A stretch of DNA of 64,000 nt from Taiwanofungus camphoratus (lineage: Eukaryota; Basidiomycota; Agaricomycetes; Polyporales; Taiwanofungaceae): assembly GCA_003999685.1 (NCBI GenBank), contig CP021228.1, positions 310,001-374,000 on the forward strand, given 5' to 3'. Below the pieces are notes generated by a model. It worked only from the letters and a program-made list of their open reading frames with translations. It ran no database searches and had not been told where the DNA came from. The position numbers were made by a program, and so were the translations under genes. Below are positions 17,147 to 41,192 of this stretch, one piece after another; position 1 is the stretch's first letter; each line of letters begins with the position of its first letter.

Positions 17147-17273
17147 GGGCGGGTGGGCCTCAGCAACTCTAGCCCCAGGTAGGTCGCGGGAGAGATGCGT
17201 CGAGTCGGAGAAAAGGAAACCGAATGTAACCGATGAAGATGCAAGTTGCTGACCAAAGGGAGAGGCGGGTGGG

Positions 17274-17431: not shown

Positions 17432-17622
17432 TCTATGTACGTCCAGTACGTGGATTTGAGAAAGAGAGTAGGATAATACTTTGTTATTAAGGATGGGTTG
17501 CGGCAGAGCCGCCAATACAAACGATAAGTGATATTAGCATATGTGGGCAAAAACCAGAGGTTTTTTGACCCGAAACAAGAGCCCGAACCTAGCAAAGGGA
17601 GAAAGACTAACGTGAGCTGTGA
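17431..17622 (-). repeat. Split direct repeat B1 of the DIRS-like element
   Basis: 192 bp copy of the terminal repeat at 16955-17146. It lies just after the recombinase coding part in sense orientation. Confidence 0.92.
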
Positions 17623-20600
17623 TTCCCATGAATTAGGAGTCTCGCGACGCGTCGAAGCGAAGGTTAGATACCCCTGTGTTAGGAGCGGGAAAACGTACCT
17701 CGGTCTATTATCGAGCAGGTGGCATGGTGTACCGCGTGAAGGGTTCCAGGATGGGGGTGCCTTGCAGATATGGTGCCATGACCACTGCATGCTGCCGGAG
17801 ATAAAGTGTGAAACTGTCTCCGCTCCAGCGGCCGAGAGATTTGACAACATCAAATGGTACTCCCCGAAGTAGATACTCCAGCGTAGCTCCAATCCGTATG
17901 CCGTGCCCTTTGAGCGACTCGACTCCAAGCGCGCTCGCTGCAATGTTGAGCCGTTTCAGAAAAACCGATCGTGTAAGTGGCTCCATGCCTTGTCGATGTC
18001 GTCGTGCGAAAAGCGGCCCATCCCTTGGTGGTTTGTTGACGGCGAGGTGGTTTGCGAGTGCTGCTGCGGGATCCGCAAGTCCCATTTGGGTGGCCCAATA
18101 GACATCTTCCCCTTCCACTGCGGCGACTTTGGTGCGTGGGATATGGAAGACTGTGACGTCCAAGCCATGACGGTCTTGCCTGGTCGAGATATCACTGGGT
18201 GTGACGTGCGTCTGGTGGTCGAAAGCTTTGGAATTTGTTAGTGTGAATTCACCTAGTCTTGCCATGCTAAAGAACGTCGTTGTCAGGCATGCGAAAACTG
18301 CTGCGTCCAGTGGTAATGTGATATCGAGTTTTGACCGAAGCTGGGTGATGAAGTCAATGGTGAAGGGGTGACGCTTCGGTCTTCTGGAGGTGGGTGGAGC
18401 AAGTTTGGTAGCGCCATCGAGCGCTGCATTCATTTCGGCATGGTTCATCTCCCAAGGCTGGCCATGCAGGGTATGCCATGCTTTGATTGCATAGAAATAG
18501 TTGGCTAACGACTTGCCTGAATATGCTCCTGCACAACTTGCGATGAATGCTAACATAAGAACATTGCCAGCCGGGCAACGCTGCGACTCTGGAATGTTGC
18601 GAGTATCACAGAAGACGTGAAATACCAGAAGACCTGCCCCATACGTCTCCCGAGTGCCTTGTGCCCATGACACTGTAATGACTGCTAGCACCCGGTCAAG
18701 GTCAGCATCTGTTATGGTGATTGGCTTCCCTTGCTGATCTTTGGGTGTGCGCGATGTCAATGGTCGCCAGAGTCGTAGCCGATCTCGTGCCAGGCAGTGG
18801 GGACGCAAGTTTGATGGTATGGGAGTCAACCCTACTCGATATGGTTTTGGTGTGTTATATGCAGATGTCGATGATGGAAGGGGAGCCGAGAAACGCTGAG
18901 TACCATCAATGGTCGTCATCCTGGAGACTGCTGTAGATGCACTTGTCACGGAAGTCGTCTGTGTCAAATTGTTCACGGGCACGAGTATCTGCGACAGCGT
19001 TCGCAATTGACTTTGCGATCGCTTTTGGATAACGTCCCTCTCGGAGGCATCGTAGCTCTGTAGCTGTGTAGGGTTCTTCAGCATCGATAATAAAGCGTCC
19101 GAGTTCTGATGGAAGCTCGAGTGGTGGGAGGAGGAGGGACTTGGATGAGTAGACACCCCGAGATGGGGCATCTGCTGGATTGTGCTTGCTGGGTATGTAG
19201 GCTGTGTGTATGCACTCGGGATTGTTGCCTTCGGTGAGGTACTGATGAATTCTTTTGAAAACGGCATTGATGGCTTTGCTCCGACTTCGGCTGTTTCGCC
19301 ATCCATCAACAACGCCCTGGTTGTCCCCGTATATCCTGTAATGGCTCGTAAAGCCGCGAGTCCTGGTGAGGGTGCGTACTGCAAGTTCAAATCCGACTGC
19401 CTCTGCCCATCCAATATCTCTGCGTCCATCCAATGTTTGCCATCCTGGGATAAGCCGCCAAGCTCGCCACCAGCCATTGATGATGACGCCAATGCCAATG
19501 CCTGAACTGGCATCTGAGAATGCTCCGATATCGACGACCTCGATGTTGCTGTCTGGTATGGACCGTATGGGTCCTGGAGCAGCCTGGCTGAGGATGGCAG
19601 CCCACCATTCCAGATCTGCGGTGACACCTTTGGCAGGTGCGTATGGCATGAAAGGGCGATCAGAGCAGATTCCGAGCATGGTCTCCAGTCCAGTGAGATA
19701 CGCACGTCCTCTGGGAACAACCAGGCAGGCATGTAACAACTTGCCGTAGAGCCTTTGTACCTCGAGAAGGGTATGCCTGCTTTGATGTTGCCAATCAAGG
19801 ATCGCTTGTTGGTATTTCGCCGTCTTCGTTGCTGCGAGACTGACTGTCGCTTGCGTAAGGTTCCATACCAGGCCAATGAATGTTGCCGTAAATGCGAAGG
19901 CAATGTCCTTGCTGCGCTCCCATGGAATGCCAAGGTCACTTGAAAGGGCGTCAATGTCAGTGAAGTTGTAGGTGTACTTGGCCTCATCCTGGCTTCGTGG
20001 TGAAGATGATGATAGGTCTTTGCATGCGAAAGTGTAGTCTTCATCAGACTCCCTACTGACATTGTTGGCTGAGGATTTTGTGCCATACCAGATGCGTCCT
20101 CCATCATGATGGCGTTCTCGTGTGGCTGGATTTTGATGTAAGTCGCTGCGATGACTGTTGTATTGCTGAAGCTCCTGTCGAAGAATTCGAACAAAGAGGT
20201 GATCATCCACCCATTTCGATAGCGGCAGTATCCCTTGTGATCTAAAAATATCATTTTCGGCATCTGCAACATAGCCATATACTCCTGATGATGGTGTGCT
20301 CCCGAAGGATACACAAGTGTCCACTCGAAACTCGTTGTCTCCTGTACATACCACTGATCCTGGCCACTGTGAGTAGTGAAGTGGAATGGTGCGATAGGCT
20401 TCTGCCACATCTCGTGTGGCTGCTTGTGAACCTGGGGGTAGTCCTCGAATAAGTTGCGCAATGATGGTGAAGGTCCCCCATGTGCTCGGAAAGTCATCGG
20501 AATTAATGGTGGAATTGATAGAGGGGTTTGGAAATTGAACGGATGGACGACGAGGAAAGGAGAAATTCTGAACAATCCGATACTTGCCTGGCTTTCCTGG

Positions 20601-21361
20601 CTTTGGAATGATAGAGAACGGTGATGTCTGAAAAGGCCCAATAAGCTGCTCAAGTGCATCCTTTGAGAATGGACCAATGTATCGGCCTTTTCTTGTCTCC
20701 GTGGCAACAATATTTTCAAATTCATGCGAGAAATCAAGTACAGAATCTGTGTTAGATGGAGTTTGTGTATGCGATATATCAGGTATGTTGATGATGAAGC
20801 CGTTTCGCAAGCCTGCCAGTAGAAGATCATATTTCGGAAGAAGTCCCGCGCTCTGTAAGTAAATCTTCCAATGATCTCTTTTATACGGTGTGATAGGTTG
20901 ATGCTTTCTCTGCTCGAGGACACTGCTGAGCTCCGTGAGTGTTCTGTCCACACCCTGAGCATAAATGACGTTCGTCGTGGTTCCTGCTTGTGCATCCTTC
21001 GGGGCGTTGCCAATTGAAGCATAGGGCTCGGCCGTCTCGCAGCGAGAGAACTTTGTTGATTCGCTGCGCCAGAGATGAGTGTGTTTTGTCCCATATGCTT
21101 GTGTCGCAGCATTCCATGACACGGTGTTGATGACGTCCAAGACAGATGGCACAAGCAGAGAGGACACGTCCACTTGTGCCGGCTTGAAAATTCTGTTTTC
21201 GAGATGGATAAGGTTGTGCCGCAGTTCTCACATTGGCATGCTGATGGCTATCTGATGGCACTCGACCAATGTTCGAGCTGCTTTGGGCATGACTCAAGTG
21301 TCTTGGCAAGGATATCACCATATTCGGATTTTGCATACTGCGCTGTTCAGCTCGGCTTTGC

Positions 21362-21507
21362 GATGGCACATGATGGCACATTGATTGATGGCATATGATG
21401 GCAGATGGCATATGATGGCAGATGGCATTTGATGGCAGATGGAATAGGATGAAAAAAGGGAGATAAATCCCGACATTGAAAGAAGGTGGGGGGGGGGGGG
21501 GGGGGGG
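21362..21507. repeat. GATGGCA-type minisatellite and 20-G homopolymer inside the retrotransposon
   Basis: From 21362 to 21442 the words gatggcaca and gatggcagatggcatat recur about eight times. From 21488 to 21507 there are 20 consecutive G. Both lie between the gag-like frame and the zinc-knuckle/polymerase part. The G run could form a G-quadruplex and is also a place where assembly length may be wrong. Confidence 0.9.
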
Positions 21508-22495
21508 TAATGTGAGTATAAATTTCTAAGGCATATGAATATTATGGACATACAAATCTCTCTGATTGTCTTTTTGTCGTCGGTCTTCCCAGTAAACTCG
21601 TGCCCTGGTTTTTTCTAAGATCTCTTCACTGATTCGTGATAGATTCCATGCACCCTGTGCTGAGGGGATGGCCATATGCCACAGTTTCCGCTGCTCCGCT
21701 TGATAGAGCAGTAGCGTCTTCTGATCCAATGGATCTCTCGATGACCGCATTGGATGAATCTGAAGATTTCCCCAGAACGTTGCGACCATGAGGACTCGCT
21801 CCGCAAGCCATCCAGCTTGTTCCATGGCAAGGATCATTCTCGGAACTGCCTGGCAGAAATCTTCCCACACCAGATCCTTGTCATCGATAACACCATGCGC
21901 ATCTCTGGTTGCGGCAGCAGGTACCCACGCCGTTGTTCCATTTGCATTTTGTTGGAGAACCATTGCTTCATCATCAATTGTGCCAGTGACATTGATTGCC
22001 TCGTCAAGCCCCTTGTTAGTGTAATAGTACATCTCCACATACAGACCTTTTTCCATCTTCCTGACTGCATAAGTTGCCGGAAGAACTGGTGTGATGATTG
22101 GTGCATCTCGGTCTGGAATAGGAATGTATTTCCCTTTGTTCTTCTTTAGTTCTTCCTTCCGTGTGGCTTCTTCTTCGATCTTTGCAGCTTCACGCCGATG
22201 TGTCTCGGCTTCCTCTGCTAGATGAATGTGGTTTTCTAGTATTGCTGCCTGTTCATCTAGCTGGTTTTGCCACTGTTGTCTATCCACCTGATTGGCTTCA
22301 TGCCATATGTTTATCAGCAGCTGGATTGCTTGAGCCTCAGTAGTGTTGGCATTGATACATGATGCCCGAGTAGCTGCATATCTCGGAGATGCATAGTCTG
22401 GACATTGGGCCTCGGATGGATCCGATAGTAGTCTCTGCATTGCTCTGACGTGTTACTGCCTAGGATACTAGTCTCAAGGTACTCTATATCAATTA

Positions 22496-22653
22496 TGAAA
22501 TTCAAAGCGACACTGTCGACTGAGAACTGTGTCGTCGAGCAGTGTTTTTGCAGTGTGCGACGCTGGATAAGAGAGAGCGCGTCGCACTGCCTAATCCGTA
22601 CGTAGACTATATTCTATGGTCGCGCTCGTGCCTCGCGCTCGCTTAGAAGCCGA
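22496..22653 (-). repeat. Split direct repeat A1 of the DIRS-like element
   Basis: 158 bp 5' terminal repeat in sense orientation, matching 17274-17431. The host sequence resumes at 22654 (catacgg). Confidence 0.92.
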
Positions 22654-23365: not shown

Positions 23366-25072
23366 TTATGACCAATTCGATGACTCGGTCCGAAGCAGTT
23401 TCGGTACATGTTCTTGACCAGAACCACCAATATCGAATGAACAGAGCGGCCATTCATTCATCATCCATGCATGGAAGGTATTCCCCAGACGACACCATGA
23501 TCTTACGTGGAACTTCTTGGGCGCATGTTCCTCAACTACTAAAGCTCCAATGGCGCGATCTCCGATCCGGTCGACCTCTCCCCACGGGCACTGCTTCCCT
23601 ATAGATACTACAAAAGTTTTGAAACCTTGCGTCTGCCTTTCTAGGTTCCGCGGTATTTCCCAAACGGTCCCATCTGTTGCGGTGATATAGATGGTACTCG
23701 TGTCTTCATATTCAGTCATTCCAGAAAAATGGTCAACCTTGTTTTCCACGAACGTTAGGGGAGCGGCGCGGCTCGAGAAAGTAAGATACCCGGCATCATC
23801 CATGCTCGCTGGGGCCGGCATATCATCCAACCACCATTTGGCATCCGAGCCCCGGTACATTATTCCCGCCACCTCAACAAAGGTGCTATCCTTTAGTGTA
23901 TAGCCTAGACGGACCTCCCCATTCAGCAATGATGTCTGAGGTGGGTCTGGAAACGTCGAGATCTGGCTGCTAGGCGGAAGAAAGAAAGATATTGCAAGCC
24001 AGTTCGCAGGGCGGCCATTGCGCAGAGTCACCTGGGCCAGTGCCCTGGTCGCGAGCAGGCGATCATTCTGCCCGTATACGTGCGTGTCGAGCGTGACGCC
24101 GAAGAGACCCATTATACTGAAGATCATGTCGACAGGGCGGGAGGAGGTGCGCATCATCGAGCTCCGCCATATTGCCTGCTCTCGGGCAGCCCCTTTCAAA
24201 TTCATTGCGCCCCAGAGCGCTATGAGCTGCACCCGTGCACTCTCCGACGACGTTGCATCGCCTTTTGTGTTGCGAATTATAGCAGGGGGATCTCCATCCG
24301 CGGTGGCCAATGGTATGGCATTCGCGAGAATGTCTTTCAGAGGTGCCATAGCGCACCTGTATGACAGGACTTCCTCGACATTGGTTTTTGACCACCCGTG
24401 CTTCCACTTCCAGTCAAAGTTATCGAACAAGACATAAGCTTCTGGGGGCGCTACAGCTTCCTGCAATGTCCATGCACGAGTGATCCACTCCGTCTCCTCC
24501 TGCAAGGGCACTAAACGCTGGATACCGCCCGGAAGGATCAAACACACGTTGCAACGCTTGTAGATCGCAAACATGTTGCTGATCTGATAAGCCTTATCAC
24601 TGCGGTTGTTTTGGATGATGCATAATCTGTCGATCCACAGGTACTTGTACCCCTTGTTCCAAGCCGCCTCGCATGCGTAGGCTAGAATGGCGATGCCGAT
24701 TGGGTCTGAGTCTTCCGCGGCGCCCTCTACATTGAATCTTCCCCAGGAGGCATCCGAATTGCGTGGAATAGGATTACCACGCCAGACGTAAGACAGCGTC
24801 GCATACGGGACGCCAGTGTCTGGAGGAAACGAAGAAAACTCGTCCACGCACAGTTTTCTTGTCCACATCGCACCTTGGGTGAGCTTCTCGCAGTCCAGCA
24901 GGCGGAATCGTCCCGGGGTGGCTGTGCCGTTTGAGGTGATGTCGATCACTTTCCCCCTCAGCTGAAGGAGAGAAATTTCGAAAATTGTGGTCGGAGAAGC
25001 CATCGATGCGTCGGCGAATGGTTGATATGTGTGTAAAAGACTGCTATAAGGCAGCGATGACCACGATACCAA
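23366..25072 (-). CDS. HET (heterokaryon incompatibility) domain protein
   Basis: Uninterrupted 568-codon frame without introns, unlike its neighbours. The N-terminal half carries the three HET blocks: VPYATLSYVWRGN (about residue 87), KYLWIDRLCIIQNNRSDK with AIYKRCNVCLI (about 140-180) and WITRAWTLQEAVAP (about 198). HET domains have a TIR-like fold; in ascomycetes they trigger cell death when unlike individuals fuse, while in basidiomycetes the role is mostly unknown. The rest has features common to such proteins (RPVDMIFSIMGLFGV) and a C-terminal region with no domain I can name. The alternative start MASPTTIFEISL at 25003 would drop 23 residues with no domain signal; I cannot decide between them. 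It lies next to a young retrotransposon, but no damage is visible. Confidence 0.88.
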   Translation of the reverse strand: MVSWSSLPYSSLLHTYQPFADASMASPTTIFEISLLQLRGKVIDITSNGTATPGRFRLLDCEKLTQGAMWTRKLCVDEFSSFPPDTGVPYATLSYVWRGNPIPRNSDASWGRFNVEGAAEDSDPIGIAILAYACEAAWNKGYKYLWIDRLCIIQNNRSDKAYQISNMFAIYKRCNVCLILPGGIQRLVPLQEETEWITRAWTLQEAVAPPEAYVLFDNFDWKWKHGWSKTNVEEVLSYRCAMAPLKDILANAIPLATADGDPPAIIRNTKGDATSSESARVQLIALWGAMNLKGAAREQAIWRSSMMRTSSRPVDMIFSIMGLFGVTLDTHVYGQNDRLLATRALAQVTLRNGRPANWLAISFFLPPSSQISTFPDPPQTSLLNGEVRLGYTLKDSTFVEVAGIMYRGSDAKWWLDDMPAPASMDDAGYLTFSSRAAPLTFVENKVDHFSGMTEYEDTSTIYITATDGTVWEIPRNLERQTQGFKTFVVSIGKQCPWGEVDRIGDRAIGALVVEEHAPKKFHVRSWCRLGNTFHAWMMNEWPLCSFDIGGSGQEHVPKLLRTESSNWS

Positions 25073-26923: not shown

Positions 26924-28347
26924 TCAGAGGTTCTGAATCTGAACGATCAGGAACTGTTTCTCGTCCTGCATCATGTACAAGCAATTTGTCAAGTAGTCAG
27001 CGAACAACAGACTGTTTGCAAAGCCTTAGCACGTACCGTGAACTGTTCGTCTGTGGAACAATAAATGAATTCGTAAGCGGAAACTACAACATAAGGGTTG
27101 CCACAGAACACGACGTACCCTCTTTGTCATTGTGGAAGTTCTTGAGGAATGCAAGGAGCTTTTCCTTGTTACGTCGGAGTATATTTTCTATCTGTGGTGG
27201 CTTCTTCGGATTCGCCACGAACACCTGAGCAAACAGGCACCATACACATCCAACTCAATGACAAGAAAAGGTTCCTATGCCGGCGCACCTTGAACACATG
27301 GAATGCCTCAAATTGAATGTTGCGGCTCTTATCGCGGAGGAGGTTCATCATCATCTTGAGGTTCGCCTCGCTCGCGATATAGCGCGTCATCACAGCAAAA
27401 TTCGCTCGATCAAGTAGGATCTCGCCAAGTAGTTTCAGAGACTGCCGCTTCGTCACATAATTGCCCGACATGATGAGAGTGGTATATGACTGGAAGAACT
27501 GTTGTAAAAGGATTAGAGATGAGAAGTAGGCTTGATTACTAATGACGTACACGCTCGTAGTTCTTATCAAGATAGTCCGCGACCATAGTCTTGTGGCGCG
27601 TAAGTGTCTCCTTGAGATTTGCAAACGCATCGCACGACACACCGAACGTTGTCGTCTCAATAAAATGTGGGAACGTGTAGAACCTGGACTGGACGTCAGG
27701 CCAAGGCCACAGGCAACCCATGGGACGATCGCCACACTTACTGCTCCGAATGCAGCAGGATCCTCGCGAGCGGCTCGTGACGGAGCATCTCGCGGAGGAT
27801 CATACCGGTGTTCAGCGCGACATCCTCGTTCTTGTACCCATCAAATGCCGCGAAGAGCACTTCTGGCCGCCCGCACAGGTACTCCACCGTCGGGAACCGC
27901 GCGCCGATCTGCCTTCGCAGTAGGTTGTTGAAGATCTGCACCACATCCTTACGTGCCTCGAACTCGAGCCGCTGGATGTTCGCCAGAAGATGGTACAGCA
28001 GGTCTGTCGAGTACGTCTCCTGTGCCAACTGCGCGACCAATTCCGGGAGCGGGTCTGTGAATGAGTCAGTGAGTCAAGAAGTAACATACGACTTGTCTAG
28101 TAAGCGGGTGAGCGGGGGCTTACCGCCGTCTCCGTACAAGATCGCCTTGATCTGCTGCAAGTTCTTTGCTACCTCATCGTTCGCCTGAAGTACAAATATA
28201 AGCTGAGCGAGACTGGTTGAAAGCAGTGACGCTCGCCTTCCGCCTAGTTTCTCCGCCTGGTGGGCCTGCTTCCAACTTCGGCAGCGCGTCTCGCAATCCA
28301 CGGATGAGGTCTGGCGGTGTGCGTGGCTTGCTCTTGAAGAAATTCAT
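26924..28347 (-). CDS. HYM1: Mo25/Hym1 family scaffold protein (CAB39-like)
   Basis: Mo25 is an armadillo/HEAT-like scaffold that activates GCK-type kinases: STRAD-LKB1 in animals and the RAM/MOR network (Hym1/Pmo25) controlling polarity and cell separation in fungi. The start at 28347 gives [20 protein letters not shown], the canonical N-terminus. Later blocks: [147 protein letters not shown] and, last, [13 protein letters not shown]. About seven short introns interrupt it, for example after RRKAS, GDG, LLHSEQ, KNYER and HVFK. Length is close to the family's 330-340 residues, and all the conserved blocks I expect are present. Confidence 0.93.
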
Positions 28348-28814
28348 AGTGATGGCAGTGGAATATGTGCCCAAGTTGGATCAGTGTGCCAATGGGGCAG
28401 AGACAGCCGCCAGTGTCTGTTAAGATATGAAGCGGCCGGTCTACGTCAGAGCGTTCAGGAAGGTATATAGCAAGGGTATAGCTGGTATTGCGCGCCGGAT
28501 CAGCCAGCAATAAGACGGGGGTTATATAGGTAACAGGTTTCTATACCCGAATATACAAGTCTGCGACGAGATGAAGAGGATGAGATGAATCGACCCGGAA
28601 GCTCCCCAGCCCAGTGGTCCATTTCAACTTTGCACGTGATTTCAATCTGTAGGCACGTGGCACGCGTCTCCAGATTGAAAATATCGCGTGGATATTATGC
28701 ACGTGAACTCTCGGATGTAGCATACGATTGGCTGCTAGGAGGTAGAGAGCTTTAACAAGCTGACCGCAGCAGTTGGGACAGAACGCCATAACAGAAATAG
28801 TGTCCCTTATCCAC
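28348..28814. other. Intergenic region with diverged outer edge of the inverted repeat
   Basis: Upstream of Mo25 (-) and of the left SNARE copy (+). From about 28750 the sequence (gctgaccgcagcag, cataacagaaat) matches the promoter of the right SNARE copy near 40680-40760 in reverse complement, at clearly lower identity than inside the arm. Confidence 0.55.
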
Positions 28815-29726
28815 GTATCGGGACCCAGCAATGTCTCTCGTATGAGCTGCTTTTTCAAACCCCATGACATTGTCTTAGATGCTCTGCGATGGTTGAGACT
28901 CGCGCGACGAGGGCGTGGATTTGAGCCGGTTTTCTTACGAGGTGGATATCCTCAAGTTTTGCTCTCAATTTTTGCTTGAGAGGCGATTGGACCTAACATG
29001 ATTGTAGCAACTCAGACGATTTTGTCCAAGATCCCTCCGAACAATAGCAAGTTGACTTATGTCTGGGAGCAGTATCTGTTCCACTACGTGTCGGAGGGAG
29101 GATTCACGTATCTCGTCATGGCAGACGATGCTGCAGGACGGTGAGTATTTCTTGCTGAATCCGTTCTGCCAGGATGACTCAGTGGCAAGGGCCTGATGAC
29201 AGCCGAATGCCGTTCACCTTCCTCGCTGAGCTCCAGCAGAAATTCACCTCTCTCCCCTCCGCTTCCGACACCACCTCGCTCTCCGCCGCGCCCGCGTACG
29301 GCCTGCAAGGTACCTTCGGGCCGACCATCGCGCAGCTCATGCACACGTACAACACCGCGCCCCCTGCCGACGAGCTCACACGCGCACAGTCAGAGCTCGC
29401 GCAGGTCAAGGACATCATGGTGCAGAACGTCGAGCAGATCCTATCGCGTGGGGAGCGCATCGAGCTACTCGTGGACAAGACGGACAACATGGCGAGCCAG
29501 GCGACGGCGTTCAGGCGAGGGGCGCGGACTGTGAGGCGCAGCATGTGGTGGAAGAATAAGCGGGTGGTGGGCTTGAGTATTGTGGTGGGCTTGGTGTGTA
29601 GATACTTACGAAGCCATCACGTCACCTGGCACGAGCTCACGGTCCATTTCTTTGTAGGTCCTTCTCTGGATCATTGCAGCTCAGTTCTGTGGAGCGGGCT
29701 TGAACGAATGTGGGACAAGTTCATGA
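28815..29726 (+). pseudogene. VAMP7-type R-SNARE copy with an inverted exon
   Basis: Paralogue of the intact gene at 39752-40653. Its 3' exons are whole: longin part TQTILSKIPPNNSKLTYVWE onward, SNARE helix and membrane anchor, ending at 29726. The 5' end is not. The first exon ATGTCTCTC is kept (about 28823), but the segment 28879-28928, where exon 2 should lie, is the reverse complement of the intact exon's first half (gatggttgag..gggcgtggat reads on the plus strand in both copies although the arms are inverted). Read as an exon it meets a stop at once. The sequence beyond the inversion (ttctta, gtggatatc) is again in normal orientation, so this is an in-place micro-inversion of about 50 bp. 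A shorter protein from an internal start is possible but unsupported. Confidence 0.82.
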
Positions 29727-30191
29727 GCTAGGCGTACGTCTGTTTCTTTTTTACGTGTCCGGTCTCCATGCATAGCAGATCTCTGCCACCCGCTGCCTAA
29801 TGTTAGACTTATTCATATTCATCTTCTACTTTTTTTTTTTCTATTGTACATCAGCAATCGATTGTCGCTTTCTGTTTTCGTCGCGTGTTCGCGCATATGT
29901 CTCTGCAAGAGAGTTGTTCCAAGTCCACTGCATCAGCTCGAGAGCACGGTTGCAGGTTAGCTTCGTTCTTCCTTTCGAGTGCTGTTGATAAGAAAGAAGC
30001 ACATCAAGCTGCGACGGTTGCTTACCTACGATTTCATAAGCTTGAGGGTTTCTGCGAGTACTGACAAGTCTTGGCCATCAAAGGAACTATGGCAGCGTGT
30101 ATTTTGCCGCGCGGCTGTCTCGCGATTCTAATATGGGGGTCAGCAGCGCAGACCAGGGATGTTTGGCGACGGTGCCCCAATCGTAGAAGCG

Positions 30192-30251
30192 GCCTTTCTC
30201 GAATGGTGGAACATGAAGGACCGATGTATATATCCTGGAAGGAAAGCCTGA
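30192..30251 (-). repeat. Scar: promoter copy of the MDR gene without the gene (left arm)
   Basis: Reverse complement of 39227-39286. About 87% identical to the stretch just upstream of the MDR gene (34208-34268: gccatccctcaggctttc, then ggtccttcatgttcca). The sequence continuing past it matches the stretch downstream of that gene (36229-36372), with the gene missing. Confidence 0.75.
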
Positions 30252-30361
30252 GGGATGGCTAAAGCTATGGAGCCCTATGTATCTGAGAACCACACATATG
30301 CTCTTCACTGTTATAGCACGCCAGGCCTCTGAACTGTTGACTTTGAGCACTGCGTCGTGAT

Positions 30362-31169
30362 TAGTGTGGTGGGCAAAACTCCAGGAGACCTCGCCAATCG
30401 CCGGCGAGGCAATACTGTCGTCAGTGCTGCCTGGTGACTGCTGGCGATGATGGCGAAACTGGTGAAACTATGAAACTGCTCGTTCTAATGAAATGGTACT
30501 GCAGGTAGCTACAAGTATGATGATAATACAGTCAACTCCCTCTTAACCCATACCTCTCAAAACCCATACTCCCTTTAAACCCATAGCTTTTCCGATCCAC
30601 CAAATTGCTTTGTGGGGTGTAACAGTCCTCCCCATAACCCATACTCCCTGATAACCCATAGCTTGTATCTTCCACTGAGGGGGTATGGGTTAAGAGGGAG
30701 TTGACTGTAATAAATGATGTTGAATCCCACTTCTCGGCGCCTGTCTCCGTTGCGATATGTGCTCCGGGCCTACTAACCACGGCATCCCCCACCAAGTTGG
30801 GGCTGCCGCAGATCATGTGAGCGCACATTTCACAGGCAGCTGAAACTCAAGAGCAGGACAGGTAGACAGAGATGATCAGACTTTGTCGTCAACAGCATAC
30901 TCTGCTGGCATGCATGACTCCAAGGTGTACCAGAAAAGGGGACTCCTCAACCACCTTTTACTGTTGTTCAAGCAAGATTATGAAAATATATGTACATAGA
31001 AAGAGTGAGTGTAGTGAATGCAAGAATCATGAGGATACCGACTTTGGGGGGCAGCTCCGGCGCTTATGAGTTTGGCCAGGTATCGCCATAAAGAGGTGCG
31101 TCGCCAGGCTGGCGATCGCCGTCGCCGGCGATGGCGAGTGTTTCCGGCGACGTTTTGCAAACAACACTA
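30362..31169. mobile_element. Non-autonomous hAT-like DNA transposon (left arm)
   Basis: 808 bp bounded by the 8-bp target duplication GTCGTGAT (30354-30361 and 31170-31177), the length made by hAT transposases. Imperfect terminal inverted repeats start TAGTGTGGTGGGCAAAAC and, from the other end, TAGTGTTGTTTGCAAAAC. Subterminal regions are rich in GGCGA/TCGCC words (30390-30450 and 31095-31150), like hAT transposase binding sites. There is no transposase frame. A mariner-type MITE is nested at 30529-30707. Confidence 0.85.
30529..30707. mobile_element. Tc1/mariner-type MITE nested in the hAT element (left arm)
   Basis: 179 bp with terminal inverted repeats CAGTCAACTCCCTCTTAACC, flanked by TA on both sides (30527-30528 and 30708-30709). 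The termini resemble those of pogo/Fot1 elements in fungi. Internally the phrase aacccatactccct recurs in both halves. It has no coding capacity and must have inserted after the hAT element. Confidence 0.88.
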
Positions 31170-31338
31170 GTCGTGATATCTGATGCTCGGAGATCTCCGA
31201 AAACACGAGAATTGCATGTGGCCACCCTTCCTTCCGTCCTCGTTCAATCGTCTGTGCAGCTACGCTCGACTTATCGAGATGACACGACCCTTGTGCGTTT
31301 AAGCTGATGCATATCTACCCTCACACCGCCCATTGAAA

Positions 31339-32500
31339 ATGCGCTTCAAACACCTTTTTAGCTGCTCACCCTTCTCTGGCCTCCATATACGACTACGACT
31401 ACCGTTCATGTCTGCCTTTGACGACATCGTACATCTCAAACGTCTCTTCGAACCGTGTGACGAAAATCCTCGTCGTGACAATAAGCCATACTCTATCGTT
31501 ACGCTCGAGCAGCTGTATGTCAGCGGTGACCCCAGGCTTTATGACTGTGTGATCTCTGAGATCACACTTTGGAAGTCCAGGTCTCTGCCGAATCATGAAT
31601 TCGTTGTCGCACAAGTCAGCTACCAGGGGAGGATCATTGGCGCTCTGCGGATCGAACGCACCATCATGCCCACTGATGGTCCTTCGGCGAACTCGTCAAG
31701 TGTGTCCCTGACCAGCAGCCCATCTTCCCCTGGTCTTCGTGCACATGATCCCATCACGATCTACACTTCGGAGGACATCATCGCAGCGACGAGAGACTCG
31801 CATAAGATTGCACCCTACATCTTGACGGAGACTGTGACTATCGCTTCGGTCATTGCGGCCTGCTTCGTTCTAAACCAGGAATATCCAGTGTACCAATTGC
31901 CCTCAAAACAGTGCTACTGGTTTGCAGGACTGGCGTTCCGTCTGATTGCTGGAGACAATGTGATGCAGCAGATGGAAGTTAGGGACACACGGAGGGCCGG
32001 AGACTTTGGCAGCTTCATCCATGTGATGAAAGAGCCGGACATGACGCAGCAAGCGCAAACCTTCAGACCAAAGTTCGAGGCCAAGTTACAAATGATTGAA
32101 GATGGTGTCGCTGAGAGAAAGCGAATGCTCTCCGCAGAGAGGAGGTTGACCGAAATGGAGAGGCAACACAGGGATGAGGCAGAGAAACGCAGGGAGGAGA
32201 CAGAGAGACACAGGGAGGAGACAGAGAGACTCAAAGATGAGGCAGAGAAACGCAGGGAGGAGACAGAGAAACGTAGGGAGGAGGCAGAGAGACTCAAGGA
32301 CGAGGCAGAGAGACGCAAGGACGAGGCAGAGAGGAGGTTGACCGAAAAGGAGAGGCAAAACAACGCACTTGAGCTTGAACTAAGGAGGTATAGGCAGATG
32401 CACTTGGAGACCACTGCGGTGAGTGCCTCGTATGGTCGTCCCTCTTGCCTATCTCATGCTCACTTTTGTTCAGTCTGAGGAACCGAGCAGGCAACTTTGA
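31339..32500 (+). CDS. Orphan protein with conserved N-domain and long charged coiled coil (left copy)
   Basis: Two exons, 31339-32418 and 32474-32500, about 368 residues; a second ATG at 31408 gives MSAFDDIVHLKRLF and may be the real start. The N-terminal 200 residues contain YSIVTLEQLYVSGDPRLYD, TVTIASVIAACFVLNQEYPV and QCYWFAGLAFRLIAGDN, a pattern I have met in agaricomycete hypothetical proteins without known function. Residues about 250-345 are a Glu/Arg-rich coil of 7-residue units (EKRREETERHREET, ERLKDEAEKRREE) framed by two RRLTE-ERQ blocks. The gene ends ETTASEEPSRQL after the short intron. It is a near-identical paralogue of 36786-38139 but with 64 fewer coil residues. Function unknown. 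Confidence 0.75.
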
Positions 32501-32573
32501 ACACGCCGCGGGCACTCTACAAGGCGTAGAACGTGTGCATTCGGAATCGTCATATCGCATGACTCGGTAGGGC

Positions 32574-34207
32574 TGTCGTTCGTCCCGTCTTGTCCACATA
32601 CCATATTGTCGCTTTCATCGCTGTCGCTGTTGCTCTCGGTGTTCCATGTCCTTGGTCGCTTAGCTTGATCTGTCACTATGCTTCTTGCTGTAAATGTCGT
32701 GTTCGCGCATCTTTGGTCCAGTCACATCTGCTGTCGCGCGATTGCTTGGATCATGTATGTACTGTGTAATGAGTGCTCTATAACTGTCCGCTAATGTCTG
32801 CTCCGTTGAGCTTAAGCTTGAATGCATGAGCATTCGTAGACGACAATCTCCTCGAGCGCACAACTATCCATGGCGGACTTCTTGCGGCCAAATGGACACT
32901 TTTAACTAGTCCTGTGATTCCTGTCAACCCTCAACAAACAGTCTTCCTAATTCTTTAGTAGGTCTCCGATTGATAAGGGCTGTTGACAAAGAGAGACGAC
33001 AAAACGTCTAGAGAAATTCAACTATGAATCGCAATGAGCGAAACGGTATATGGTGATTGCAAGTCACTGTAATTTGGCATTTGGCTCTGGGAATGGTAGT
33101 CGACTTGGGGTTTACAATAGCTTCGCCCTGTCCGCCGCCCACGCCGCCTACGCCGCCTTATGTACGGTATTGCGTGCTTGCGGTCAAGACTGCCAGAAGT
33201 TTCAAGTATCGACGATCGGCACTTGAGGCCAGAAATTCACTGCCTTAAAACAATCTATGCTGGACCTGGCAAGTTCCCTTGGCCCAAGGGTGCGTGGTGC
33301 AGATCCTATTAATGAACACACCATCTCTCCAGCATTTGCTGTCGAAATATCAGATGAGATTGTGAATGTGCCGGAGAGCATACATAGGAAGCCCTTTCCC
33401 ATACCTAAGTGGTGTGACTGCATGCGCCCTCACACTTGCCTCAACTTTCCATCCGCCACTTGATTTGGAACGGAAGTGCAACAGCTTTGCAAGGTCTGTC
33501 CGAGAGTTTCGGCAAAGAGGCCGGGTAGCAGATTTGATTTTGGACTCTGATTTTGGACTCACGCTATTTGTATTGCGAGCCCAGAAGGTACAATCAGCGT
33601 TCTGAACCCATAGCGACTAACCTTAGTAGGAGGTGCATGATATTTGCGCTCCCACATACTCGTACTGATGGCAAGGTCACCGCACCGGGTCATAGGTGCG
33701 ATCCTCACCGCGTCTTAGTACTAGCTTACTTGTTGCGGTATATGAATGCTGATTTCATCATCATCATCATAGGTGCGATCCTAGTCCTAGAGTACAGCGT
33801 CTGGAACGGGAGAACGAGGGCCTCAATATACGCGAAGCTCACACATCCTACATTTGTCGAACGAACCGACGGTCACGGACGGGATTGGATGTGGGTACTG
33901 CACTTGATGACTGATCTTCGAGGACTTTGTATCGGATTGTATCGATAGACTCGTCGAGATTATGCGGCGACCAAGGGGGCGATACATGTGCTAGATTTGA
34001 AAGTAAGACGACCTTTCTTGGTCCTGACGTTCGACTCGATAGGCCCGGGACCTGCATTGAAGGTTCTAACTTAGGGGCAGGATTAGGCGCTCTCAGAGAT
34101 CAAACTTGGCCTGACACATTGGAAGATGAATTTGACCACTGGACCTGCGCCACAGATGTCGACAGGTCTACAGCGATGATGCATGATGCGTAAGCGAGCG
34201 CTTGCAT
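32574..34207. other. Left part of the spacer between inverted arms
   Basis: From 32574 to about 32840 the sequence is still homologous to 36435-36712 (reverse complement) at reduced identity, with small insertions and deletions. From 32840 to 34207 I see no homology to the rest of the window and no gene. Short frames at 33257-33605 show no domain. Catcatcatcat at 33758 is a small simple repeat. Confidence 0.55.
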
Positions 34208-34284
34208 GGCCATCCCTCAGGCTTTCGCTTCCACGATATATATAGGTCCTTCATGTTCCATCAATCGCAAATTCCAGTCTGACC

Positions 34285-35858
34285 ATGGCGGCCTCTCACT
34301 ATACACGCATCATACTGGCAGAAAGACCGACTGGCCAAGTTAATCCCGCCAACTTCCGCCGCGAAGTGGTCCCTTTTGATCTCAAGCCCAGCAATGATCA
34401 AGTTCTCGTTCGTGTTCAATACTTGTCAGTAGATCCCGCCATGCGTCTGTGGTTGAGTGAGTCGTCCCCAGCGCACATGCCGCCAGTACAGATCGGCGCT
34501 GTCATGAAAGCGTATGGCGTGGGCGTCGTGGTTGAAGCCGGTCAAGGCAGCGCATTTGCGAAAGGCGATCTCGTCAGCGGCATGTTCGGTGATTGAACAT
34601 GGCTTTTCAAACGTCTTGTGTCCCTGATAGTCTTACGACACGAATTGGTGTAGGTTGGGCGGAGTACGTCGTACGGGGTGGTGCAGAAGTCACAAAGATC
34701 GAGTAAGTCGAGTAATTGTACCCGGGAAAATGTTTCGAATATCCTTTGCATCTTCGCAGCGTTCCTGAAGGCGCGGAACTGCTTGATTTTCTTGGCCCGT
34801 TGAGCTTGACAGGTGACCACAAAAGATATTGACTATCAGTCAACTACGTTCTGACGAATATGACAGGACTCACAGCTTATGTGGTGTGTGTGTGGAGTTT
34901 TCAAGTGTAGAACGAAGAGCCTGAAGATACCCATATCTATGACAGGGTCTCGAGGTTGTGGCCAAAGTACAAGCGGGTGAGAAACTCGTCGTGTCAGGCG
35001 CCGCAGGTGCAGTCGGTTCTTTGGTATGTCAAATCGGGAAGGAAAAGGGCGCCAAAGTGTACGCCATCGCTGGCTCCGCGGAGAAGTGTGCGTGGCTCGA
35101 GCAGGACGTGGGAGTCGACAAGGCGCTCAACTACAAGAGCCCGACGTTCCATGACGACTTTGCAAACGCTGTGGGCAGTTTCGACCTCTTCTTCGACAAT
35201 GTCGGTGGAGAACTCCTGGACTACTTGTTGACCAGGATGAATTTGCACGCACGGGTCATCATATGTGGTATGATCTTGATTCGCTCTCGCGATGCGCGAT
35301 GCAACCTCAGTCATCGCCTTCATTGCAGGTTACATCTCAGACTACAGTCAGCCAGGAAACACCTGCTTATCCCTCTGCGCTGACACGTCTTTGCACACTC
35401 TGCAGATGTGGCCAAACCCAAAGGTCTGACCGAATATGCGAACATTCTCTCGAGTCAAGCAACTGTGCAAGGGTTCACTGTGTAGGTCATGTAACGTTCA
35501 TCCAAGGGTGTCTGACTTACACAGTCCCCATGGCTGAATGTCCGTTGCTCTTTTCTGGCTATGCATCCAATCGGTCCACAGGATGAGTTATCCCGAGAGC
35601 TTTCCTGCCGGCCGAAAGTACTTCGCTGAGCGTCTCAAATCCGGCACTTTGAAACGAAAATTCCATGTCATCGAGGGCCTGGAAGAAGCACCCAAGGCAC
35701 TGGCCATGCTGTTCAGCGGGCAGAACAATGGAAAATTGTAAGTCAGTTGCGCTAACATCCTTTTCCGCTTTGTTTCTGTGTATAGCTCGATTGGCAGATA
35801 CTCGGTCTTAGCTTATTGTGTTGTTTTTCTTGACAGGGTGCTCAAGGTGACGGGATGA
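34285..35858 (+). CDS. NADP-dependent MDR oxidoreductase (PTGR1/alkenal reductase type)
   Basis: Zinc-independent medium-chain dehydrogenase/reductase that reduces alkenals, enones or quinones with NADPH. Exons run in phase from MAASHYTRIILAERPTGQVN to KLVLKVTG; introns follow SGMFG, TKI-D, SLT-G, TAYV, VIICG, SDY, GFTV and NNGK. Motifs: VQYLSVDPAMRLWLSE (substrate region), YGVGVVVEAGQGSAFAKGD, the NADPH-binding loop SGAAGAVGSLVCQIGKEKGA, FDLFFDNVGGELLD, and the C-terminal KRKFHVIEGLEEAPKALAML. About 345 residues, as usual for COG2130. A TATA-like gatatatatagg lies at 34237. The gene sits alone in the spacer of the inverted repeat and looks intact. A close relation to fungal RED1-type alkenal reductases is inferred. 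Confidence 0.9.
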
Positions 35859-36712
35859 TCAAGGGCATTCGGAAAGATACCAAGTAAGGTCTATTGCTTG
35901 TAAGGTGTATTAGAGATTCCGCGATCAACTACATTGCGAGTTCGAATAGCTGTAAGGGAATGATATGTATGAATGTTGTGTACACATAGTATTACAAACG
36001 TATTGATCACTAAGGGAGTAGTACAGTGTTGTAGGTTGAGGGTAAAAGTTTCCCTGTCTTGACAACAGCTTCAGAGCTCTTATTTCCGACTTGCCCAGTG
36101 ACAATGTTTGGCTTACGTCACGGTCCAGGAGTCCATTGAAGGTATGGTCTTAAACTATAATGTCATTGGTGCTGTCTCTAACTGGGAGAACAAATTGCAA
36201 GCTCCACGCATTCCAACTTGGATGTTGATGGGAAAAGACCGCTTGAATTTAGTATCGCCACCGGACATACCTGGTCTGCGCCGCTAATCTCCATTATGAG
36301 GATCGCGGGCTACTACTACGCGGCAAGATACGCGCTGCCAAAGTTCCTCTGACGGTCAAGACTCGTCAGTACGTCCCGGAACGCACCCGCTGAGACCCTC
36401 AAGCTTCGCGCTCGACGAGATTGTCCTCTGCGAATGCTCAAGCACTCAAGCTTAAAGCTCGGCGGAGCAGACATTAGCGGACAGTTATAGAGCACTCATT
36501 ACACTGTACATGATCCAAGCAATCGCGCGACAGCAGATGTGACTGGACCAAAGATGCGCGAACACGACATTTACAGCAAAAGCATAGTGATAGATCAAGC
36601 TAAGCGACATGTAACGGTATCGGCAACGAACCAAGGACATGGAACACCGAGAGCAACAACGACAGCGATAAAAGCGACAAAATGGTATGTAGACAAGACA
36701 GGACGAACGACG
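35859..36712. other. Right part of the spacer
   Basis: 3' flank of the MDR gene. The stretch 36229-36372 (tacctggtctgcgccgct, cgcgctgccaaagttcct) is a diverged direct copy of 39286-39420 in the right arm. From about 36435 to 36712 it is the diverged inner margin of the right arm, homologous to 32574-32840. No gene is seen. Confidence 0.6.
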
Positions 36713-36785
36713 GCCCTACCGAGTCATGCGATATGACGATTCCGAATGCACACGTTCTACGCCTTGTAGAGTGCCCGCGGCGTGT

Positions 36786-38139
36786 TCAAAGTTGCCTGCT
36801 CGGTTCCTCAGACTGAACAAAAGTGAGCATGAGATAGGCAAGAGGGACGACCATACGAGGCACTCACCGCAGTGGTCTCCAAGTGCATCTGCCTATACCT
36901 CCTAAGTTCAAGCTCAAGTGCGTTGTTTTGCCTCTCCTTTTCGGTCAACCTCCTCTCTGCCTCGTCCTTGCGTCTCTCTGCCTCGTCCTTGAGTCTCTCT
37001 GTCTCCTCCCTATGTTTCTCTGTCTCCTCCCTACGTTTCTCTGTCTCCTCCCTGCGTTTCTCTGCCTCATCCCTGTGTTGCATCTCCATTTCGGTCAACC
37101 TCCTCTCTGCCTCCTCCCTACGTTTCTCTGTCTCCTCCCTACGTTTCTCTGCCTCATCCCTGCGTCTCACTGCCTCATCTTTGAGTCTCTCTGTCTCCTC
37201 CCTGCGTTTCTCTGCCTCCTCCCTGCGTTTCTCTGCCTCATCTTTGAGTCTCTCTGTCTCCTCCCTGTGTCTCTCTGTCTCCTCCCTGCGTTTCTCTGCC
37301 TCATCCCTGTGTTGCCTCTCCATTTCGGTCAACCTCCTCTCTGCGGAGAGCATTCGCTTTCTCTCAGCGACACCATCTTCAATCATTTGTAACTTGGCCT
37401 CGAACTTTGGTCTGAAGGTTTGCGCTTGCTGCGTCATGTCCGGCTCTTTCATCACATGGATGAAGCTGCCAAAGTCTCCGGCCCTCCGTGTGTCCCTAAC
37501 TTCCATCTGCTGCATCACATTGTCTCCAGCAATCAGACGGAACGCCAGTCCTGCAAACCAGTAGCACTGTTTTGAGGGCAATTGGTACACTGGATATTCC
37601 TGGTTTAGAACGAAGCAGGCCGCAATGACCGAAGCGATAGTCACAGTCTCCGTCAAGATGTAGGGTGCAATCTTATGCGAGTCTCTCGTCGCTGCGATGA
37701 TGTCCTCCGAAGTGTAGATCGTGATGGGATCATGTGCACGAAGACCAGGGGAAGATGGGCTGCTGGTCAGGGACACACTTGACGAGTTCGCCGAAGGACC
37801 ATCAGTGGGCATGATGGTGCGTTCGATCCGCAGAGCGCCAATGATCCTCCCCTGGTAGCTGACTTGTGCGACAACGAATTCATGATTCGGCAGAGACCTG
37901 GACTTCCAAAGTGTGATCTCAGAGATCACACAGTCATAAAGCCTGGGGTCACCGCTGACATACAGCTGCTCGAGCGTAACGATAGAGTATGGCTTATTGT
38001 CACGACGAGGATTTTCGTCACACGGTTCGAAGAGACGTTTGAGATGTACGATGTCGTCAAAGGCAGACATGAACGGTAGTCGTAGTCGTATATGGAGGCC
38101 AGAGAAGGGTGAGCAGCTAAAAAGGTGTTTGAAGCGCAT
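36786..38139 (-). CDS. Orphan protein with conserved N-domain and long charged coiled coil (right copy)
   Basis: Paralogue of 31339-32500 on the opposite strand, about 432 residues in two exons with the same splice near the 3' end. The N-terminal domain reads the same as the left copy. The coil has an additional 64 residues, including an extra RRLTEMEMQHRDEAEKRREE block, so the expansion or contraction involved a 192-bp unit containing a non-heptad block rather than single heptads. Several Arg/Glu-rich heptads are nearly identical at the DNA level (agagaaacgcagggaggag), which would favour slippage or unequal exchange. No function is known to me. Confidence 0.75.
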
Positions 38140-38308
38140 TTTCAATGGGCGGTGTGAGGGTAGATATGCATCAGCTTAAACGCACAAGGGTCGTGTCATC
38201 TCGATAAGTCGAGCGTAGCTGCACAGACGATTGAACGAGGACGGAAGGAAGGGTGGCCACATGCAATTCTCGTGTTTTCGGAGATCTCCGAGCATCAGAT
38301 ATCACGAC

Positions 38309-39116
38309 TAGTGTTGTTTGCAAAACGTCGCCGGAAACACTCGCCATCGCCGGCGACGGCGATCGCCAGCCTGGCGACGCACCTCTTTATGGCGATACCT
38401 GGCCAAACTCATAAGCGCCGGAGCTGCCCCCCAAAGTCGGTATCCTCATGATTCTTGCATTCACTACACTCACTCTTTCTATGTACATATATTTTCATAA
38501 TCTTGCTTGAACAACAGTAAAAGGTGGTTGAGGAGTCCCCTTTTCTGGTACACCTTGGAGTCATGCATGCCAGCAGAGTATGCTGTTGACGACAAAGTCT
38601 GATCATCTCTGTCTACCTGTCCTGCTCTTGAGTTTCAGCTGCCTGTGAAATGTGCGCTCACATGATCTGCGGCAGCCCCAACTTGGTGGGGGATGCCGTG
38701 GTTAGTAGGCCCGGAGCACATATCGCAACGGAGACAGGCGCCGAGAAGTGGGATTCAACATCATTTATTACAGTCAACTCCCTCTTAACCCATACCCCCT
38801 CAGTGGAAGATACAAGCTATGGGTTATCAGGGAGTATGGGTTATGGGGAGGACTGTTACACCCCACAAAGCAATTTGGTGGATCGGAAAAGCTATGGGTT
38901 TAAAGGGAGTATGGGTTTTGAGAGGTATGGGTTAAGAGGGAGTTGACTGTATTATCATCATACTTGTAGCTACCTGCAGTACCATTTCATTAGAACGAGC
39001 AGTTTCATAGTTTCACCAGTTTCGCCATCATCGCCAGCAGTCACCAGGCAGCACTGACGACAGTATTGCCTCGCCGGCGATTGGCGAGGTCTCCTGGAGT
39101 TTTGCCCACCACACTA
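38309..39116. mobile_element. Non-autonomous hAT-like DNA transposon (right arm)
   Basis: Inverted copy of 30362-31169 with the same 8-bp flanking duplication (ATCACGAC on this strand, 38301-38308 and 39117-39124). Because the flanking duplication is shared, the insertion predates the arm duplication or its homogenisation. Confidence 0.85.
38771..38949. mobile_element. Tc1/mariner-type MITE nested in the hAT element (right arm)
   Basis: Inverted copy of 30529-30707, 179 bp, with TA at both flanks and the same terminal inverted repeats. Confidence 0.88.
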
Positions 39117-39226
39117 ATCACGACGCAGTGCTCAAAGTCAACAGTTCAGAGGCCTGGCGTGCTATAACAGTGAAGAGCATATGTGTGGTTCTCAGATACA
39201 TAGGGCTCCATAGCTTTAGCCATCCC

Positions 39227-39420
39227 TCAGGCTTTCCTTCCAGGATATATACATCGGTCCTTCATGTTCCACCATTCGAGAAAGGCCGCTTCTACGATTG
39301 GGGCACCGTCGCCAAACATCCCTGGTCTGCGCTGCTGACCCCCATATTAGAATCGCGAGACAGCCGCGCGGCAAAATACACGCTGCCATAGTTCCTTTGA
39401 TGGCCAAGACTTGTCAGTAC
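39227..39420 (+). repeat. MDR-gene scar in the right arm
   Basis: 39227-39286 matches the sequence just upstream of the MDR gene (34208-34268) and 39287-39420 matches the sequence downstream of it (36229-36372), in the same order and orientation. The roughly 1.96 kb gene itself is absent. Identity looks like 75-87% by eye. Confidence 0.75.
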
Positions 39421-39751
39421 TCGCAGAAACCCTCAAGCTTATGAAATCGTAGGTAAGCAACCGTCGCAGCTTGATGTGCTTCTTTCTTATCAACAGCACT
39501 CGAAAGGAAGAACGAAGCTAACCTGCAACCGTGCTCTCGAGCTGATGCAGTGGACTTGGAACAACTCTCTTGCAGAGACATATGCGCGAACACGCGACGA
39601 AAACAGAAAGCGACAATCGATTGCTGATGTACAATAGAAAAAAAAAAAGTAGAAGATGAATATGAATAAGTCTAACATTAGGCAGCGGGTGGCAGAGATC
39701 TGCTATGCATGGAGACCGGACACGTAAAAAAGAAACAGACGTACGCCTAGC

Positions 39752-40653
39752 TCATGAACTTGTCCCACATTCGTTCAAGCCCGCTCCACAGAACTGAGCT
39801 GCAATGATCCAGAGGAGGACCTACAAAGAAATGGACCGTGAGCTCGTGCCAGGTGACGTGATGGCTTCGTAAGTATCTACACACCAAGCCCACCACAATA
39901 CTCAAGCCCACCACCCGCTTATTCTTCCACCACATGCTGCGCCTCACAGTCCGCGCCCCTCGCCTGAACGCCGTCGCCTGGCTCGCCATGTTGTCCGTCT
40001 TGTCCACGAGTAGCTCGATGCGCTCCCCACGCGATAGGATCTGCTCGACGTTCTGCACCATGATGTCCTTGACCTGCGCGAGCTCTGACTGTGCGCGTGT
40101 GAGCTCGTCGGCAGGGGGCGCGGTGTTGTACGTGTGCATGAGCTGCGCGATGGTCGGCCCGAAGGTACCTTGCAGGCCATACGCGGGCACGGCGGAGAGC
40201 GAGGTGGTGTCGGAGGCGGAGGGGAGAGAGGTGAATTTCTGCTGGAGCTCAGCGAGGAAGGTGAACGGCATTCGGCTGTCATCAGGCCCTTGCCACTGAG
40301 TCATCCTGGCAGAACGGATTCAGCAAGAAATACTCACCGTCCTGCAGCATCGTCAGCCATGACGAGATACGTGAATCCTCCCTCCGACACGTAGTGGAAC
40401 AGATACTGCTCCCAGACATAAGTCAATTTACTATTGTTCGGAGGGATCTTGGACAAAATCGTCTGAGTTGCTACAATCATGTTAGGTCCAATCGCCTCTC
40501 AAGCAGAACTTGAGATATCTACCTTGTGAGAAATCCCGCTGTCCGCTCTGATGTTCCGCGAGGATGGTTGAGCCTCGCGCGACGAGGGCGTGGATCTAAG
40601 ACATAGTCAGACAATGTCATGGGTTTCGAAGCATCAGCTCATACGAGAGACAT
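39752..40653 (-). CDS. VAMP7-type longin R-SNARE (intact copy)
   Basis: R-SNARE for fusion of vesicles with the vacuole, endosome or plasma membrane. Exons: 40645-40653, 40523-40595, 40338-40470, exon 4 from 40275, and a last exon ending at 39752. The longin domain reads MSLIHALVARGSTILAEHQS, QRDFSQATQTILSKIPPNNS and YLFHYVSEGGFTYLVMADDA. The SNARE helix has AQVKDIMVQNVEQILSRGER with the central Arg, then LLVDKTDNMASQATAFRRGA; the membrane anchor is VVGLSIVVGLVLLWIIAAQF. The first exon holds only three codons. It lies in the right arm; its left-arm twin is broken at exon 2, so this is probably the only working copy. The stretch Thr-Ala-Pro-Pro-Ala before the SNARE motif is a normal linker. 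Confidence 0.92.
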
Positions 40654-41192
40654 TACTGGGTCTTGATACAGTCAAAGAAAAGAAGGAAAGTGTTGTGTAT
40701 AAGTAACACGATTTCTGTTATGATATCTGCTGCGGTCGGCTTGTCTAAGCAGTTACGGTGCAGGCCGACCGACATAGAACCCAACCCTGGAATAGGGTTT
40801 ACGGGCCGGCCGAGTCTTTTTATTTTATTTTAATTCACCGGGTTTATACTCCATACCAAGTCACAAAATGCTTTCATAACATATGGAGTTAAACTAACAT
40901 GAACAGCCTGTTCTGTAAGTTGGAGAGCTTGTTTTAGAGCCATCACACCAATCCGACGCCCCAACTCTCAAGGGTGAAATGGAGTGGAAGTTACCAAATC
41001 TGGGAGTATCATTTTCTATAATTTTGAGTTCTTCGAGGATTGGTCCACTTAGTCGCCTTGTGATTGGCGGGAGGACGAAAGTCACGCGACGCGCGATCGT
41101 GTAGTACTCGTCCATGCCCACGTGGAGTCATTCATACACTCAGAACACGACACCCGCCAGCACATCTCACTTTTGTCAACCTATATTTTATC
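40654..41192. promoter_or_regulatory. Shared upstream region of SNARE (-) and Sec61 beta (+)
   Basis: Divergent promoter region. 40654-40760 is homologous but diverged relative to 28750-28815. At 40735-40830 an unusual GC-rich stretch with inverted words (gcggtcggc / ggccgaccg; aaccctggaatagggttt) precedes a T-rich run. Two CCAAT-type words (gattggt at 41037, tgattggcgg at 41061) lie 130-160 bases before the Sec61 beta start. Confidence 0.5.

Follow-up and report, generated by a model that had tools for sequence, protein, structure and literature searches.

Segmental duplications, for example those of humans, are dispersed duplicated blocks that reportedly exchange short stretches by interlocus gene conversion. 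Arm-to-arm conversion with a mean tract of 2068 bp has been described for the human Y palindrome P6 (PMC3723533), and in palindromes of the willow W chromosome conversion was reported to be confined to parts of the arms, as inferred from missing paralogous variants (PMC7023750). In Cryptococcus mating-type loci, where pheromone genes are arranged divergently, conversion-based repair was proposed with the qualification 'If confirmed' and likened to Y palindromes (PMC12510652). The present study concerns an inverted pair in a window of 64,000 nucleotides (the whole stretch analysed, positions 310001-374000 of contig C9) of Taiwanofungus camphoratus, whose genome comprises 33.19 Mb in 15 contigs. 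Each arm is a block of about 4 kb carrying a gene for a membrane-fusion protein (R-SNARE) and a gene for a charged, heptad-like repeat (coil gene, within 30227-32863 of the left arm), and a spacer of approximately 3.5 kb separates the arms. Sequence comparison shows the right arm to be a mosaic, in which the coil-gene core most probably derives from the left arm through ectopic gene conversion.

An initial annotation of the window had proposed an older inverted duplication with a core rewritten by conversion. The part of this proposal that stands is conversion over already diverged copies, to which the conflicting affinities along the right arm point. It left out a dispersed family of nine coil loci, the different clade of the right inner margin, which lies beside a patch related to a third locus, and a microinversion in the outer margin by which the left SNARE gene has its exon 2 disrupted.

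Identity along the two arms

The core edges given by the initial annotation are exact to the base, since the dense outer differences stop at 28972 and the inner ones resume at 32574 (36712 in the right arm). The homology of lower identity that it described on both sides of the core is also present, at about 80% in the outer margin, while the inner margin extends to 32863/36404, slightly past the 32840/36435 given previously. Identity was found to differ between core and margins, and the counts along the arms rule out uniform identity, the outcome named beforehand as contradicting the proposal. From 29664 to 32253 the arms match at every base and without gaps. The 691 bases of 28973-29663 include 7 differences, compared with 0/2470 in 29664-32133 (Fisher p = 2.3e-5), and six of the seven fall within 28973-29299 (6/327 versus 1/2954 in 29300-32253, p = 6e-6; the border at 29299 was picked after the sites had been seen). 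The presence of a stretch with 1.8% differences and of a near-zero one implies at least two layers.

A coding minisatellite with units of about 7 codons begins at 32254 and is 192 bp longer in the right arm; its alignment between the arms holds 192 gap columns and 2 mismatches, with one further mismatch at 32382. The inner margin contains a 23-bp indel and, in its last part, 10/63 mismatches. In the outer margin two segments, of 83.3% (100/120 aligned bases, 40 gap columns) and 78.1% identity (25/32, 23 gap columns), flank a stretch that aligns solely in the opposite orientation. Chance similarity is ruled out by the 3.5-kb match and by the inverted SNARE exon 2, which scores 28 against a best of 3.5 among 1000 shuffles.

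An assembly or polishing artefact, in which both arms were built from the reads of one, deserves attention because near-identical inverted repeats are known trouble spots and the arms were judged from the assembly alone. However, the arms retain different array lengths, the 7/691 differences and different margins, and diverged copies elsewhere in the genome were kept distinct from them. Had long reads been used, arms of 4 kb would also be short in comparison. We thus consider an artefact very improbable. Contig C9 bears TTAGG repeats at each end, which speaks for good assembly in general and has no bearing on the arms specifically.

Clade affinities of the coil gene and origin of the right-arm core

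Including the two arms, a protein search of the genome revealed nine coil-gene loci, besides one additional weak match. Two clades with a sequence divergence of about 5% between them could be distinguished, clade I being represented by C9:199 kb and C13:923 kb, clade II by C9:35 kb and C9:97 kb. The clade I copies include the left side of the pair, while the clade II copies include the spacer toward the right arm. The clade II loci are near-identical to each other (23 mismatches in 4070 columns), and a second near-identical pair, on two chromosomes, is formed by C9:199 kb and C13:923 kb, with 1/1020 differing bases in 31096-32133 of the coil core.

The clades are separated by 61 diagnostic sites within the homologous range, with the minisatellite excluded; a longer list of 253 sites holds minisatellite sites and non-homologous flanks and was not counted. 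In the coil core the right arm carries the clade I base at 46/50 sites, as does the left arm. The picture differs in 32605-32863, where all 11 sites of the right arm have the clade II base and 10/11 of the left arm that of clade I, and the shift in affinity of the right arm between core and this stretch is pronounced (Fisher p = 3.3e-9). Beyond 32806/36462, toward the spacer, the right arm belongs to clade II, whereas the left arm remains in clade I. In this comparison, which spans the coil half, the left arm is clade I on either side of the coil core. At 32574, 32595, 32605 and 32627, and in a deletion at 32684, the right arm agrees only with C9:199 kb.

Approximately unbiased (AU) tests, which included six of the nine coil sequences, gave a similar picture. 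The core favoured grouping of the right with the left arm (alternatives p = 0.029 and 2e-6), 32382-32699 grouping of the right arm with C9:199 kb (0.002 and 0.001), and 32700-32863 grouping of the right arm with clade II (5e-7 and 2e-78). The weak contrast in the core is due to the left arm lying close to the node, with branches near zero. In addition, the right arm differs from C9:35 kb by 38/800 mismatches in the coil core and by 78/~3400 in the adjoining spacer (Fisher p = 4e-4), an excess that would result from a replacement of the core later than the separation of that copy. As described for interlocus conversion, the tract is more alike between the paralogues than the flanking homologous sequence, and its tree conflicts with the flank tree, with partitions chosen post hoc and the core passing only the AU test.

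We consider it likely that two already diverged inverted copies recombined recently, in an ectopic and probably intrachromosomal gene conversion that put left-arm sequence in place of that of the right arm. The pair would be old, its margins having diverged by about 20%, and its right arm would have received at least ~2.6 kb (29664-32253, with a start at 29300 if the single difference at 29663 arose afterwards), and 28973-29299 would represent an earlier or less complete tract. The direction, left to right, would follow from the coil half. One event, not several, is suggested for the identical stretch, because it continues into the 3' end of the SNARE gene (exon 5, joined by the second part of exon 4, with one difference, when the stretch is counted from 29300). 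The tract ends may have been set by heterology, the outer edge lying beside a 14-bp indel and the microinversion, and the inner one near the 23-bp indel and the end of homology.

A recent inverted duplication that placed the left block at the right site, between older duplicates that already flanked it, could also have left 2.6 kb of 100% core identity. Furthermore, no SNARE match was seen next to the coil gene in either clade II locus, C9:35 kb or C9:97 kb, and the old right block may have been partial. However, homology extends past the core on both sides, into SNARE exons 1-2 and the coil 3' flank, and at the right inner end lies a paralogue of this very coil gene, so that a copied block would, at both ends if not throughout, have taken the place of homologous sequence. 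The two or more layers described above are a further difficulty, and we regard such a duplication as quite unlikely.

Alternatively, the right arm may always have been clade I, and only its inner flank (~36200-36600) may have been overwritten by the clade II copies. In 36200-36599 there are 0 mismatches in 400 bases against C9:35 kb and C9:97 kb (5 gap columns), compared with 1-15 per 200 in other spacer bins, so that a recent exchange there is probable, and the adjoining patch is closest to a clade I copy. Nevertheless, overwriting of the flank leaves the 2.6 kb of identity between the arms unexplained, for which conversion or recent duplication is still needed, and has to attribute the higher divergence between the coil core and C9:35 kb to yet another event. 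As an account of the locus it is therefore unlikely.

Several points weigh against copying from left to right. Both arms carry the clade II base at 4/50 core diagnostic sites. The partition borders of the AU tests were picked after the differences had been viewed, and the core tree joining the right arm to clade II, rejected by AU (0.029), is not rejected by the Kishino-Hasegawa (0.070) and Shimodaira-Hasegawa (0.348) tests. Clade II consists of two near-identical loci, which are not two independent witnesses, and the C9:199 kb patch and the mismatch-free 400 bases show further exchanges whose direction may be either way. The SNARE half has no third copy, so the direction there depends on contiguity alone. 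Most of the SNARE gene lies in the 99% layer, outside the identical tract, with exons 3-4 up to 29299 belonging to the older layer. Finally, the whole analysis uses one assembled genome, with the paralogues within it as comparison.

Exchange or recent copying touches other family members too, interchromosomal cases included, given the 400-base identity with clade II and the near-identity of C9:199 kb and C13. A closed pair of the palindrome kind was ruled out for the coil half by the genome searches, since this half also takes part in exchanges beyond the two arms.

The function of the coil gene could not be read from its sequence. Pfam gave no match for the right-arm copy, the sole copy submitted, a search of PDB gave only one weak match, to a phage tail fibre (E 0.07), and a single-sequence AlphaFold model was uninformative (mean pLDDT, the predicted local distance difference test, 37.7). 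An open frame of 352-455 codons is kept in 6/9 loci, and the remaining three have stops within the matched stretches (introns disregarded). No sign of constraint on the open reading frame (ORF) was seen in the ratio of nonsynonymous to synonymous rates (dN/dS, method of Nei and Gojobori, NG86) over a 765-base stretch in 15 pairs: 13 of them gave 1.04-1.53, and two, left/right and C9:199 kb/C13, were identical.

The two SNARE gene copies

The right-arm gene, with five predicted exons and GT-AG borders, encodes a protein with longin and synaptobrevin regions (Pfam Longin 1.5e-22, Synaptobrevin 3.4e-26) that ends in a hydrophobic C-terminus. Its closest solved relative is human VAMP7 (4b93; E 1.1e-32, residues 1-199), and it is classed as a VAMP7-type longin R-SNARE, the membrane anchor being judged by eye from the translation. 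A protein search confined the SNARE to the two arms, with residues 1-27 matching the right arm only; such a search works exon by exon, and distant R-SNAREs may escape it.

The left copy has no intact longin N-terminus, its exon 2 being inverted. The first hint of this microinversion was a plus/plus match between otherwise inverted arms, 28888-28920 against 40563-40595 (96.97%, E 8.7e-8). Only one of the two genes, the right copy, looks intact. In exons 3-5, 6/7 differences between the copies are synonymous (P(>=6/7) = 0.0065 under all-random transitions, although one of the seven is a transversion). As most differences are synonymous, much of the divergence of the SNARE body looks constrained: it may predate the inversion, belong to the right lineage, or indicate that the left body is still used.

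Conversion from left to right would imply that the half-broken left SNARE gene templated at least the 3' part of the only intact VAMP7-type SNARE gene, within the same tract as the right coil gene, and perhaps the remainder of exons 3-4 through the older tract, with the inversion as a barrier that spared the right copy the damage. We put this forward tentatively and hold it to be doubtful, because the identical tract does not take in the whole SNARE body, reaching just exon 5 and, when counted from 29300, also the second part of exon 4. If the tract donor does extend to the SNARE gene, the locus would be a natural case of a damaged copy templating an intact one without passing the damage on. 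It is in any case a warning that, of what appear to be two near-identical SNARE genes, a single one is intact, the other having an exon inverted.

Neighbouring sequence and comparison with known systems

Table 1. Features of the inverted pair and its spacer (window positions; R, right arm).
Feature	Position	Strand	Remarks
Left arm	about 28746-32863		inverted relative to right arm
Right arm	about 36404-40757		inverted relative to left arm
Left outer margin, old SNARE 5' region	28746-28972	+	~80% like R 40757-40506, indels; outer end approximate
Left SNARE exon 1 (MSL)	28831-28839	+	GT donor-like site follows; common to R 40653-40645
Microinversion of SNARE exon-2 sequence, left arm	28878-28926	-	89.8% turned round vs 69.0% unturned
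Left 99% tract	28973-29663	+	holds SNARE exons 3 (28981-29140) and 4 (29203-29593)
Left 100% identical tract	29664-32253	+	most of SNARE exon 5 (29658-29726) and coil gene as far as minisatellite
MITE-like repeat (miniature inverted-repeat transposable element)	30523-30712		~186 bp, terminal inverted repeats ~30 bp; both arms and C13 copy
Left coil gene ORF	31303-32478	+	stop to stop, 391 codons, clade I
Left inner margin	32574-32863		clade I at inner end
Spacer part duplicated elsewhere	32992-36403		present at C9:31-35 kb; from 34666 on also C9:95-97 kb
Spacer gene, alcohol dehydrogenase-type reductase	34246-35741	+	Pfam ADH_N_2 on ORF 34246-34596, ADH_zinc_N on ORF 34943-35383; remainder by eye
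Right inner flank	36200-36599		clade II-like
Right patch	36580-36712		five states common only to C9:199 kb copy
Right coil gene ORF	36808-38175	-	stop to stop, 455 codons; clade I core adjoining clade II flank
Right SNARE gene	39752-40653	-	exons 40653-40645, 40595-40523, 40497-40338, 40275-39885, 39820-39752 (incl. stop); borders by eye
Right outer margin	40506-40757	-	exons 1 and 2, coding orientation

The coordinates of the pair are collected in Table 1. The MITE-like repeat occurs in at least 26 further places (40/96 candidates scored). No mobile element spanning the block, as a possible mover of the arms, was seen, with no dedicated search made, and Pfam returned nothing at E 0.01 for nine further ORFs of the window. 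Outside the pair, the element at 16955-22653, which we take to be DIRS/Ngaro-like, has repeats that are 100% identical (22496-22653 to 17274-17431, and 16955-17146 to 17431-17622), one ORF whose weak match to Phage_integrase stays below the Pfam cut-off (E 0.0084), and two further ORFs without a Pfam match. Three more full-length copies at 100% rounded identity (C7, C6, C1) and several at 99% are present, and from its sequence the element looks recently active. A HET-domain (heterokaryon incompatibility) ORF of 568 codons lies near the pair (23366-25072, Pfam E 2.2e-16), and a Mo25-like gene (27169-28380, minus strand; Pfam match only for ORF 27738-28073, the rest by eye) stands head to head with the left SNARE gene.

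The telomeric repeat is TTAGG, not TTAGGG, at both ends of C9, the start of C13 and the end of C4 and, among the matches listed, at the starts and ends of C1 and C2 and the start of C3. TTAGGG is described as widely conserved in Basidiomycota (PMC7952879). TTAGG has already been published for Boletus edulis (PMC12134998) and for Rhizoctonia, in a source whose methods name TTAGGG (PMC7884421).

With P6 the locus shares inverted arms, multi-kilobase tracts and homogenised arms around a spacer; unlike P6, it has near-identity only in a core of ~3.6 kb, old diverged margins and one half that exchanges outside the pair (PMC3723533). The initial annotation had drawn the parallel with sex-chromosome palindromes, which holds for the process but not for arm identity: palindrome arms are more than 99% identical nearly throughout, whereas near-identity is here limited to 28973-32573, with the outer margin at ~80% and the mismatch-rich inner end beyond it. 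As in the willow W palindromes, conversion is restricted to parts of the arms and is read from paralogous variants; those palindromes are described as having four arms over a total of ~200 kb in a sex-determining region, and the test there used a sister species, in contrast to the paralogues of the same genome used here (PMC7023750). The Cryptococcus pheromone genes are likewise inverted gene copies of a basidiomycete, but there conversion is a suggestion, made for a mating-type locus, while here the sequence itself reveals the tract borders and points to a likely donor (PMC12510652). No mating-type gene was found among 18 proteins or ORFs run against Pfam, which cover part of the window, and no search was aimed at such genes. 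Literature searches on related topics turned up no conversion around a fungal SNARE; none was aimed at SNAREs, and we make no claim of absence.

The locus is a well-resolved case of a known process, interlocus gene conversion, with no new mechanism; its unusual detail is the inverted exon beside the tract edge. Because copies that departed earlier preserve the older state, the tract edges, at least three exchange partners and the likely donor are readable from one genome. Compared with human segmental duplications, the blocks are smaller, they lie on a fungal chromosome, and an inverted pair is found among the copies.

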